Source: Gloeobacter violaceus PCC 7421
Lineage (GTDB): Bacteria > Cyanobacteriota > Cyanobacteriia > Gloeobacterales > Gloeobacteraceae
Assembly: GCF_000011385.1 (NCBI RefSeq)
Contig: NC_005125.1
Span: 4,030,001-4,094,000, forward strand
Reading direction: 5' to 3'
DNA: 64,000 bases
The position numbers were made by a program, and so were the translations under genes. Shown here in pieces: positions 41,987 to 45,561 of this stretch (position 1 is its first letter; every line of letters begins with the position of its first letter). A model generated the notes under the pieces. It was given only the letters and a program-made list of their open reading frames with translations. It searched no databases and was not told the DNA's origin.

Positions 41987-42571
41987 GTGCACCGAATCAA
42001 CAAGGCGGTCGATATTGTCGACTTTTGGTTCTGCGAGCCGGAACACCCCGAGTACGGCCAGTTTCGCTGGGAGTGGTTTACCCAGGATGAAAGTTTCGAT
42101 GAGCAGATCCGCGGACGCTTTGCGGAGGACTACGAGCAGGCGGCAGGGGGAACTTACGACGAATGGCGGCAGATGCCCTACAGCGGCCTGGCGCTGATTT
42201 TGCTGCTCGACCAGTTCCCGCGCAACCTCTTTCGCAACACTCCACAAAGCTTCGCCACCGACCCCAAGGCCCTCGCCGTCGCCGAATCGCTGGTGGCGCG
42301 CGAACTCGATCAGGTGCTCATCCCGGTGCAGCGGATGTTCGTCTATTCGCCCTTTGAGCACAGCGAAAATCTTGCCCACCAAGAGCGCTGCGTGGAGTTG
42401 TTCGAGCGTCTGGCGGCCGAACCCGGCATGGAAATCCCGATCGACTACGCCCGCAGGCACCGGGACGTGATTGTCCGCTTCGGCCGCTTCCCGCACCGCA
42501 ATGCGATCCTCGCTCGCCCCTCGACCCCGGAGGAGATCGCTTTTCTCCAGCAGCCGGGCTCGTCGTTTTGA
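41987..42571 (+). CDS. DUF924 family protein
   Basis: 194 residues from a GTG abutting the rbgA stop, with GAGGAGGG upstream inside rbgA. DIVDFWFCEPEHPEYGQFRWEWFTQD, ILLLDQFPRNLFRNTPQSFATDPKAL and RFPHRNAILARPSTPEE are the family's signature motifs. DUF924 folds as a TPR-like helical protein; no function is established. Confidence 0.9.
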   Translation: MHRINKAVDIVDFWFCEPEHPEYGQFRWEWFTQDESFDEQIRGRFAEDYEQAAGGTYDEWRQMPYSGLALILLLDQFPRNLFRNTPQSFATDPKALAVAESLVARELDQVLIPVQRMFVYSPFEHSENLAHQERCVELFERLAAEPGMEIPIDYARRHRDVIVRFGRFPHRNAILARPSTPEEIAFLQQPGSSF

Positions 42572-42738
42572 GGCCTTTCGTTAAAGCTAGGGCCATTGCA
42601 CTTCTAGGCCGAAAATTAGTCTACAAGTAATTATGTTGCTTACAAGCGTGCGTATAATGGTGGGCATAGATCGTTTGGCTTCATCGGTTCTACAAGCCAA
42701 GATCCTAACTAAGGAACTAGAATCAAACTTGCTGAGAT

Positions 42739-43893
42739 ATGAACTTAACTGATTGGCTTGCAGGAGGGTTGCCCTCAATATTCAAGAGCGTACTTGGCAG
42801 TATTTTAACTGCATTTACTCTTTATTTGTTCAACGAAGCTTCCAGGTGGTTGAGGGCACAGCCAAGCTTCCAGCTCAACTTTCTCTTAAGACCACAAGAA
42901 TTTATCCGTATGTTTCGACAACAGGATGAGAGGTTAGATATTTCTAATGAATGGCCGCTTTTTGTGAAAAAGTATCGCCAACCTCCAATAGGTAGACCTG
43001 ATTTTCGAGAAGAGCTTGGCCTTTGGTTCGCGACCAAAGTTTTAGCTTTTTCAGCTTTGTTCATGTTTGTAATTGGAGGTCTGTGCCTATGGGTCTGGTT
43101 CAATCTTTATACGGATCCAAAAGCAGGCATTTTCTTGATTTTTTTTGCTGCTTGTACTTTTCAAGCATCTGCTCTTTCATACAGTTATTTTTCTGTGATA
43201 ACAGAACGTGGTACACAAGTCGAATTAGAACTGAAAACCACAAAGGACAATATAGTCAAAGTTTGCTTGAAACTTTTCGCAGAACGAGGAATTGAACTGC
43301 CTGAGCTGGAAACCCGTGAATCATTAACAACTATTGAGGGTATTGTTGGCAAAGGTTTTCTATCGCTCGGACAAAAACTAAGAGTCCGTGTTTGGCAAGT
43401 TGATGACAGCACCTGCTCGATGTCAATAGATAGTGTTGCTTTAATAGCTGAATTAATGCCTGAAGGAGCCAAAAAACGTAGAACGGGCAACCCTAAAATT
43501 GTTAGCAGCTTTGTCAGAGAGTTTATTGCACTAGGAATTCAAGAGTTTCCGGTTCCGAGAGGCTCTATGCAACAAATGCTTGAGGAAGCGACTGGTTTTA
43601 CGAGTAACTCGCGAAATCAAATTGTTCTCTTAGAACGCGTAGAAATAGCTTTGCTTGCTGTTTCAGAATCAGATGCACAGCAAATCCTTTGGCTTATTCG
43701 ACTCATTCAAAATCAACCCTTGAGTCAAATATTTGCTAGAAAGGACATTAGAGAGTTGAAAGGAGAAGAAAGACGCTATTTACTTCCTACTCCCAATCAC
43801 TACGCAATATTATTTTCTGTCGCAGACAAGAGTACGGTTACAATTCTGGATATTATTAGCGAGAAAATGTCTTACATGCTTGCGAAGAAGTAA
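42739..43893 (+). CDS. Membrane protein of unknown function, partner of Shedu-like nuclease
   Basis: 384 residues, visibly A+T-rich compared with flanking genes. A first hydrophobic segment is near residues 10-32 (LPSIFKSVLGSILTAFTLYLF), and a membrane hairpin lies at ~95-150 (VLAFSALFMFVIGGLCLWVWF; IFLIFFAACTFQASALSYSYF). About 230 cytoplasmic residues follow, with helical and mixed segments I do not recognise. Its TAA overlaps the ATG of the next gene (TAATG), so the two are translationally coupled. A membrane sensor or anchor for the nuclease is an inference from that coupling. Confidence 0.65.
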   Translation: MNLTDWLAGGLPSIFKSVLGSILTAFTLYLFNEASRWLRAQPSFQLNFLLRPQEFIRMFRQQDERLDISNEWPLFVKKYRQPPIGRPDFREELGLWFATKVLAFSALFMFVIGGLCLWVWFNLYTDPKAGIFLIFFAACTFQASALSYSYFSVITERGTQVELELKTTKDNIVKVCLKLFAERGIELPELETRESLTTIEGIVGKGFLSLGQKLRVRVWQVDDSTCSMSIDSVALIAELMPEGAKKRRTGNPKIVSSFVREFIALGIQEFPVPRGSMQQMLEEATGFTSNSRNQIVLLERVEIALLAVSESDAQQILWLIRLIQNQPLSQIFARKDIRELKGEERRYLLPTPNHYAILFSVADKSTVTILDIISEKMSYMLAKK

Positions 43894-44525
43894 TGTCGAG
43901 CACGAAGGTGTTCTCAAATTTTGATTTCAATATTCAGAATTGTCGCTCCCAGCTATTTGAGTTTAGAAGGTTGTTAGAGAACGGTCCATTCCTCTCAGAG
44001 CGAGATCATATTCAGCCTTTCTTCGAGCAAAGCCCAGACTTGTCGTCATTTATTGGTAAGTATCATCCCGACATTGCTAAGATCGATCGTCTCGCATTCA
44101 GATTAAATCTATTTGGTGATTTTTGTTGTGACATCGCAATCGGCGATTCTACAAGACATACGTATTGTTTTGTTGAATTTGAAGATGCTAATTCAAACAG
44201 TATCTTTTCTGTAAGAGGCAGGAGTACTCCCGAGTGGTCGCGAAGGTTAGAACGTGGATTCAGCCAAATCGTCGACTGGTTTTGTAAGTTGGACGAACTA
44301 AAAAATACTCCTGACTACGAGAATCTATTTGGCAGCAGAATGATCGATTACATTGGATTATTAATTGTAGGTCGAAGCATGAATATGGAAGTCAGAGAGC
44401 AGAGAAGATTGAAATGGAGAAGCACTAACACTGTAGTTAACTCAAAAAGAGTCATCTGCTTAACCTTCGATCAGCTTTACAACGACTTGGCTGACAGACT
44501 CACTTATTTTTCAGGTGGAGAGTAA
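43893..44525 (+). CDS. Shedu-like (DUF4263) PD-(D/E)XK nuclease
   Basis: 210 residues. GDFCCDIAIGDSTRHTYCFVEFEDANSNSIF supplies the Asp and E-x-E of a PD-(D/E)XK site. WSRRLERGFSQIVDWFCKLDEL is the following helix, and IGLLIVGRSMNMEVREQRRLKWRS the IGR element seen in DUF4263 (SduA) proteins. The canonical Lys of E-x-K is Glu here, as in some Shedu members. Shedu is a single-gene anti-phage nuclease in its described form; here the nuclease is coupled to a membrane protein. A+T-rich, suggesting transfer. Confidence 0.65.
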   Translation: MSSTKVFSNFDFNIQNCRSQLFEFRRLLENGPFLSERDHIQPFFEQSPDLSSFIGKYHPDIAKIDRLAFRLNLFGDFCCDIAIGDSTRHTYCFVEFEDANSNSIFSVRGRSTPEWSRRLERGFSQIVDWFCKLDELKNTPDYENLFGSRMIDYIGLLIVGRSMNMEVREQRRLKWRSTNTVVNSKRVICLTFDQLYNDLADRLTYFSGGE

Positions 44526-44538
44526 ATATTGTTGAGAC

Positions 44539-45561
44539 TTAACTGTACCCCTTATCGATATCGCGTATGAATTCATGGAGAAGCTGCAAATCGACGTTGC
44601 CACCGCTAATAATGACTCCAACGCGCCTGTCCGCTGCCTGCACCCGGCCTTCGAAAAGGGCTGCCGCCCCAAGGGCACCGGTGGGCTCCACGACGATCTT
44701 GAGCCGCTCCCACAAAAACAGCATCGCCCGCACGATCGCTTCCTCCTCCACGGTCACCATCTGATGAACGTAGTGGCGCACCAGTGGAAAGGTGACGGCT
44801 CCCAGCGATGGAGTGCGCGCCCCATCGGCGATCGTGGCGGGGTTGTGGACTGTGTGCAGGACGCCCGTATAAAACGAGCGCATCGCATCGTCCGCCTGCG
44901 CGGGTTCGACCCCGACTACCTGACAACCGGGGCTCACGGCCGCCGCGGCGATGGCGCATCCTGAGAGCAAGCCGCCCCCGCCGCAGCAGACGACGAGCAC
45001 ATCGAGCGCCCCCACCTGCTCGAAAAGTTCCAATCCGGCGGTTCCCTGCCCTGCTACCACCTGGGGGTGGTCAAAGGGCGGGATCACCGCCAGTCCCCGT
45101 TCGCGCGCCAGTTGGTCGGCGAGGGCTTCGCGGGTGGTTTCAGACCGCTCGTAAAGGATCACCTCGCCGCCGTAACCTTCGGTGGCACGCCGCTTGACCG
45201 CCGGAGCGTCGCTGGGCATCACGATCGTCGTTGGAATCTCCAGGATTTGTCCCGCCAGGGCAATCGCCTGGGCGTGGTTGCCGGAGGAGTAGGCGAGCAC
45301 CCCGCGCCGCCTTTGCGCTTTGTCCAGTTGCGAGAGGGCATTGTAGGCTCCCCGGAACTTGAACGCCCCCATGCGTTGGAAATTTTCGCACTTGAAGAAG
45401 ACCTGCGCTCCAGTCAGGTCGTCCACCGTACGCGAAGTCAGAACCGGCGTGCGGTGAGCGACTCCCCTCAAACGGTCAGCAGCCGCCTGGATATCGCCGA
45501 AACTCACCGGCAAAGTGGGGGCGGATGAGGACATCGCAGCACTTTTTGGTAACGGGATCAC
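44539..45561 (-). CDS. Threonine/serine ammonia-lyase or racemase (PLP fold type II)
   Basis: 340 residues, no C-terminal ACT domain. The PLP lysine is in GAFKFRGAYNAL. YSSGNHAQAIALAG is the substrate loop and CCGGGGLLSGCA the phosphate-binding glycine loop. Without the regulatory domain it belongs to the catabolic threonine dehydratase / serine racemase / 3-hydroxyaspartate ammonia-lyase group, which cannot be separated by eye. An ATG at 45534 is an alternative start. It lies immediately downstream of the A+T-rich island, convergent with it. Confidence 0.88.
   Translation of the reverse strand: MIPLPKSAAMSSSAPTLPVSFGDIQAAADRLRGVAHRTPVLTSRTVDDLTGAQVFFKCENFQRMGAFKFRGAYNALSQLDKAQRRRGVLAYSSGNHAQAIALAGQILEIPTTIVMPSDAPAVKRRATEGYGGEVILYERSETTREALADQLARERGLAVIPPFDHPQVVAGQGTAGLELFEQVGALDVLVVCCGGGGLLSGCAIAAAAVSPGCQVVGVEPAQADDAMRSFYTGVLHTVHNPATIADGARTPSLGAVTFPLVRHYVHQMVTVEEEAIVRAMLFLWERLKIVVEPTGALGAAALFEGRVQAADRRVGVIISGGNVDLQLLHEFIRDIDKGYS

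Follow-up and report, generated by a model that had tools for sequence, protein, structure and literature searches.

Short SduA nucleases of the Shedu family are accompanied in nearly every genome in which we found them by a RelE-fold domain encoded immediately upstream, and this domain is shown here to be a near-obligate genetic partner of short SduA. The pair that led to this result lies in a window of 64,000 nucleotides from Gloeobacter violaceus PCC 7421, whose genome is a single contig of 4,659,019 bases. It consists of a 384 amino acid partner protein (gene 1), with an N-terminal membrane module, an alpha/beta domain and a C-terminal RelE-fold domain, and a 210 amino acid SduA (gene 2). 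The best explanation for these data, to which we give about an even chance, is a two-gene Shedu anti-phage system in which a RelE-fold adaptor with swappable sensors would gate the nuclease in trans.

Gene 1 (42739..43893) and gene 2 (43893..44525) are both on the + strand, and both open reading frames are intact with one base common to the stop of the first and the start of the second, so that the TAATG junction noted when the sequence was first read is real. The pair is also A+T-rich in GC-rich surroundings as was then claimed, with a GC content of 0.40 (40%) against approximately 62%, and 0.56-0.69 in the flanks. Both genes lie within an inserted segment (42570..44583) between a DUF924 gene and a threonine-dehydratase-like gene. 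A congener (G001) has only 19 bp between these two genes, and a second congener (G003) holds a different segment of about 0.7 kb with a Uma2-type gene at the same site (L120:676-1836); the pair is therefore an insertion specific to this strain, at a site whose content varies. Strain specificity, together with the fragments to which other cyanobacterial copies have been broken, might suggest a recent acquisition that is no longer functional in this strain, but both frames are open and the junction and catalytic residues are intact, and we consider loss of function distinctly improbable.

Judged by its sequence and its structural model, the product of gene 2 is a genuine nuclease core of the Shedu type that lacks a sensor, and a predicted nuclease. 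Its assignment to the Shedu-family PD-(D/E)XK nucleases, made originally from the translated sequence, agrees with Pfam, PADLOC, the AlphaFold model and the fold matches. The SduA_C/DUF4263 family of Pfam was matched with 104.4 bits (cut-off 27; 9e-30), and the PADLOC SduA model matched residues 5-206 (1.5e-81). The D...E-x-E core and the IGR element described by the sequence-only reading were found at D80, E95-x-E97 and G160-R161 ("IGR/VGR") and are invariant in 43 homologues, among which E36 and Q125 are invariant as well. Since other cyanobacterial Shedus have either E-x-K or E-x-E at the active-site motif, E-x-E alone is no sign of inactivity. An AlphaFold model based on a 43-row alignment (pLDDT 95.8) gave the nuclease fold that had been expected for 43893-44525. 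Searching the PDB by sequence with SduA profiles found no Shedu, and the Shedu structures were recovered by fold comparison alone. The closest PDB match to the model was E. coli SduA 8ps4 (Foldseek 1.5e-6), and Z was 13.5 to both 8ps4 and 8ti9, the B. cereus Shedu nuclease domain, with the next family at 7.9. Gene 2 aligns to residues 182-380 of BcSduA and 202-408 of EcSduA, which is the C-terminal nuclease domain only, and approximately 200 N-terminal residues are therefore missing. With 210 amino acids and no N-terminal extension, gene 2 lacks the regulatory domain in the same chain that marks type I Shedu.

No family in Pfam, PADLOC or NCBIfam was matched by gene 1, which had been described as a three-helix membrane protein with a cytoplasmic domain of about 230 residues. 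The membrane module (42739..43203, + strand) is defined by hydropathy, by the structure model and by a paralogous module in the same genome (G000:C1:2143526-2144041). Two clear transmembrane helices (residues 102-120 and 130-148) are apparent from hydropathy, while the third, N-terminal helix (residues 13-40) appears in the model only, where confidence is low at residues 44-88 and 142-158. The supposed single cytoplasmic domain did not hold up and is in fact two: a low-confidence alpha/beta domain (residues ~157-267; 43207..43539, + strand), delimited by alignment and common to the MazF-linked paralogue discussed below, and a confident RelE/HigB-fold (BECR) domain (residues ~290-384; 43606..43890, + strand). 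The alpha/beta domain has weak structural similarity to Flpp3/KA1-type folds (Z ~8-9), and a function based on this likeness was dropped because such values are too weak.

The RelE-fold domain connects gene 1 to the genes found upstream of short SduA elsewhere. Relatives carry a gene of about 100 amino acids before short SduA, and its products align with the C-terminal ~90 residues of gene 1. A profile of the partner proteins, built with the window excluded, matched residues 296-377 of gene 1 with an E value of 6e-13, and the runner-up among 910 open reading frames of the window had an E value of 2.0. This part of the gene 1 model has a pLDDT of ~95. Fold comparison of residues 290-384 gave a Z of 11.1 to HigB (6kml) and 10.3 to RelE (2khe), numerous further structures of the RelE/ParE family also matched, and the RelE-like topology was evident from Z values of 9-11 to HigB, RelE, YafQ and ParE, above those for unrelated structures. 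Since the C-terminal domain matched the upstream partners, we dropped the idea of gene 1 as a plain membrane sensor without relatives. A search of a plasmid collection with gene 1 itself gave no match.

The proposal that a membrane protein and a nuclease form a co-occurring pair was right in that function appears to be split over two co-occurring genes, and wrong as to the conserved part, which is the RelE/HigB-fold domain of approximately 82 residues and not the membrane protein. This domain was directly upstream and on the same strand in 62 of 72 short-SduA loci from 9 phyla, with junctions to SduA that mostly overlap or lie within ~50 nt. Eight other loci had a divergent open reading frame of 84-118 amino acids with a weak profile score at the partner position; seven of these had E values <0.01 when scored in an eight-sequence set, and HHalign gave 91% for the Methylobacterium group. 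The last two loci are affected by a contig edge or a broken frame. Only one further copy of the RelE fold exists elsewhere within the 72 loci. Among 292 cyanobacterial genomes sampled without selection, 14 hits to this SduA family were obtained and 13 had the partner beside them; the one that lacked it is a fragment. None of the five longer Shedus in this sample had the partner (best E value 0.11).

The PADLOC model for this SduA comprises a single gene, and types I and II are described in a review as single-protein systems (PMC12409362), as would suit an ordinary single-gene Shedu whose upstream gene is an unrelated neighbor or a chance fusion. Against this, almost all loci, from 9 phyla, have the partner upstream of SduA, and none of the long Shedus has it as a neighbor, so that a single-gene system is very improbable and close to refuted. 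Because the RelE-fold tail accompanies short SduA in nearly every genome, this branch of Shedu seems to be built from two genes and to have exchangeable sensors. The partner diverges faster than SduA (mean identity 22% versus 44%), and the distances of the two proteins correlate with a Mantel r of 0.84 overall and 0.27 between phyla; since the between-phylum value is modest, the high overall r partly reflects shared descent. No natural single-chain fusion of RelE and SduA was present in the 72 loci. Long SduA frames at four of them (L045, L050, L052 and L070) were considered as fusions and rejected, as they overlap the partner gene out of frame.

SduA and its partner were also found on plasmids of Aliarcobacter, Enterobacter and R. 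rhizogenes. The partner on the R. rhizogenes plasmid (L094:2654-3001) overlaps the start of SduA but is absent from the gene table of the plasmid collection, and annotation tools seem to miss it. A Vibrio phage (L093:2714-5952) carries the pair, annotated as "RelE-like" and "Shedu__SduA", beside a Gabija GajB-like gene, and this region is possibly a phage-borne defense spot. The three genes sit between replication and lysis genes. A first scan of viral contigs found no match, and a second found one contig (L148), whose 99 amino acid upstream open reading frame scored only E 0.57 against the partner profile. At one locus (L029:6584-8126), a second copy of the RelE-fold partner has an extra C-terminal extension and is followed by a 241 amino acid protein instead of SduA; this protein has no Pfam match and has a HEPN-like motif by eye. 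Single genes matching the DISARM DrmD, ZorD, DpdE, PD-T4-6 and MADS models occur within 5 kb of short SduA at some of 26 loci, uncontrolled for background.

A fold shared with HigB, RelE and ParE raises the question of whether the domain is itself a working toxin, either a ribosome-dependent RNase or a gyrase inhibitor, acting as a second effector beside the nuclease or restrained by SduA as in toxin-first HigBA. RelE domains do act as effectors in Cami1 (8phj), a toxin-first gene order would be compatible, and the "R..IF" and "DI" positions are common among partner domains. However, there is no invariant residue, polar or otherwise, in 64 partner domains (the best columns being L at 0.90, R at 0.80 and D at 0.81), and the copy in the window has A in place of the common R. 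Gene 1 matched no curated toxin family and its relatives fall below the Pfam ParE/RelE cut-offs, so that neither the conserved functional residues nor the curated family match of an active RelE/ParE toxin was found. Invariant acidic residues are kept by the nuclease and not by the RelE fold. On the basis of its sequence, the RelE-fold partner looks like a regulator and not a toxin, and we regard a working toxin as unlikely. The regulator-first gene order fits antitoxin-first modules, and also fits toxin-first HigBA types.

What precedes the RelE fold varies. Most partner domains have no N-terminal addition, and other extensions exist in Planctomycetota. Partners from Nostocales have an AHJR-type REase (Pfam 1e-21 to 8e-24) and a further helical region before the RelE fold. 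Seven loci have this arrangement (L030, L031, L033, L040, L043, L048 and L072), one more (L032) has lost the REase part, and the helical part contains an R-N-x-x-x-H-like motif that is HEPN-like by eye. When the N-terminal module labels were placed on the SduA tree, a quick tree with many weak forks, 9 changes were needed. No other partner gene has the membrane module of gene 1, nor was it found in the 385 other cyanobacterial genomes sampled, and it was therefore rejected as the conserved partner. Both copies found among the 386 cyanobacterial genomes are in the genome of the window, and distant cyanobacterial relatives gave only weak matches to it (E values 6e-4 to 0.01).

The second copy is in a 324 amino acid gene, with 27% identity over residues 91-268 (E value 7e-12). 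The stop of this gene overlaps the start of a PemK/MazF toxin gene (Pfam 1.3e-17; pair at G000:C1:2143340-2144694, also L083:1324-2672 and L090:4350-5698). Elsewhere, homologous MazF genes come after short soluble proteins with tails that resemble that of the 324 amino acid protein ("PYDWG..DP"; phmmer 4e-4), and the pair is possibly a membrane-tethered MazEF. That the module occurs in one Shedu partner and in one antitoxin-like protein is the chief indication that gene 1 may play the antitoxin-like role, with SduA as the effector. The same fusion would also suit a toxin-antitoxin-like maintenance module, in which SduA would be a DNA-damaging toxin and gene 1 its antitoxin, selected for persistence of the element and not for phage defense. 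Small two-gene operons with a coupled start and stop, sporadically distributed and present on plasmids and a phage, are what such a module would look like. Shedu relatives, however, are demonstrated anti-phage nucleases (PMC12137116), and several nearby genes are components of DISARM, Zorya, Dpd and MADS-type systems, although uncontrolled for background. Persistence and phage defense are not mutually exclusive, and maintenance as the selected role seems to us rather doubtful.

Returning to the two-gene anti-phage system, the RelE-fold domain would bind SduA and do in trans what the N-terminal domain does in single-chain Shedu, so that the nuclease would be either held inactive or directed to its target. 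The membrane module may place the complex of SduA and partner at the inner membrane and relay an envelope signal or the entry of DNA, whereupon SduA would cut incoming linear phage DNA. The full architecture (membrane module, RelE fold and SduA) was seen in one genome only, and for this reason the suggestion of membrane sensing comes from hydropathy and a low-confidence model. A broader idea, which we put forward tentatively and at somewhat less than an even chance, is that short Shedus are an unrecognized two-component class. The toxin-inactive RelE-fold protein would then be an obligate trans regulator and a docking platform for interchangeable sensors (the membrane module, the AHJR-type nuclease and others), with modules traded with ordinary toxin-antitoxin systems.

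These possibilities bear on how such systems are found and studied. Defense-finding tools treat short SduA as complete in one gene, and its partner is either listed as a hypothetical protein or not annotated at all; if the partner is needed, SduA cloned alone would give false negatives or toxicity. If the proposed arrangement is true, a toxin fold has been turned into a regulator, a Shedu system and a MazF module of one genome share a sensor module, and the choice of target by short Shedus becomes directly testable. A literature search found no link between Shedu and RelE, within a reach that did not extend to the primary Shedu classification, where the partner may have been listed earlier; the novelty of a two-gene short Shedu with a RelE-fold partner is provisional.

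Among known systems, single-chain Shedu (B. cereus 8ti8/8ti9, E. coli 8ps4/8ps5 and V. cholerae VcSduA with its GHKL domain) has the same core fold (Z 13.5) and Pfam family, and likewise includes a sensor or regulator. The N-terminal domain controls single-chain Shedu, with DNA ends sensed by E. coli SduA (PMC12904381), and VcSduA requires both its ATPase and nuclease parts (PMC12137116). Here, in contrast, the core of 210 amino acids stands alone, the RelE-fold partner is a separate protein and the motif is E-x-E. Shedu type II is likewise based on DUF4263, is distinguished from type I and its N-terminal domains, and is described as single-protein (PMC12409362), whereas short SduA has a conserved partner gene; this comparison is by description, and the two may be the same set. 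RelE/HigB/ParE (BECR-fold) type II toxins share the fold of the gene 1 C-terminal domain, but gene 1 is without the usual antitoxin, does not conserve the catalytic positions and is partnered with a DNA nuclease. BECR-fold toxins are known with transmembrane segments and inside a defense operon (Gerdes 2025, PMC11980606). One of these, ToxM, resembles gene 1 in the fusion of a BECR-fold domain to transmembrane segments, but consists of an N-terminal BECR domain, central transmembrane segments and an extracellular C-terminal domain, with an upstream RHH/HTH antitoxin and no Shedu (PMC11980606); in gene 1 the order is reversed, with the transmembrane segments first, the BECR domain last and SduA downstream. 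In ptuXYZ a BECR-fold domain lies beside a nuclease in a defense operon, as here, but that system uses DUF262 and an ATPase and has no Shedu (PMC11980606). The MazEF (PemK/MazF) system is linked to gene 1 by the antitoxin-like gene that carries the same membrane module before MazF in this genome, and differs in that its effector is an RNase toxin and not a Shedu nuclease.
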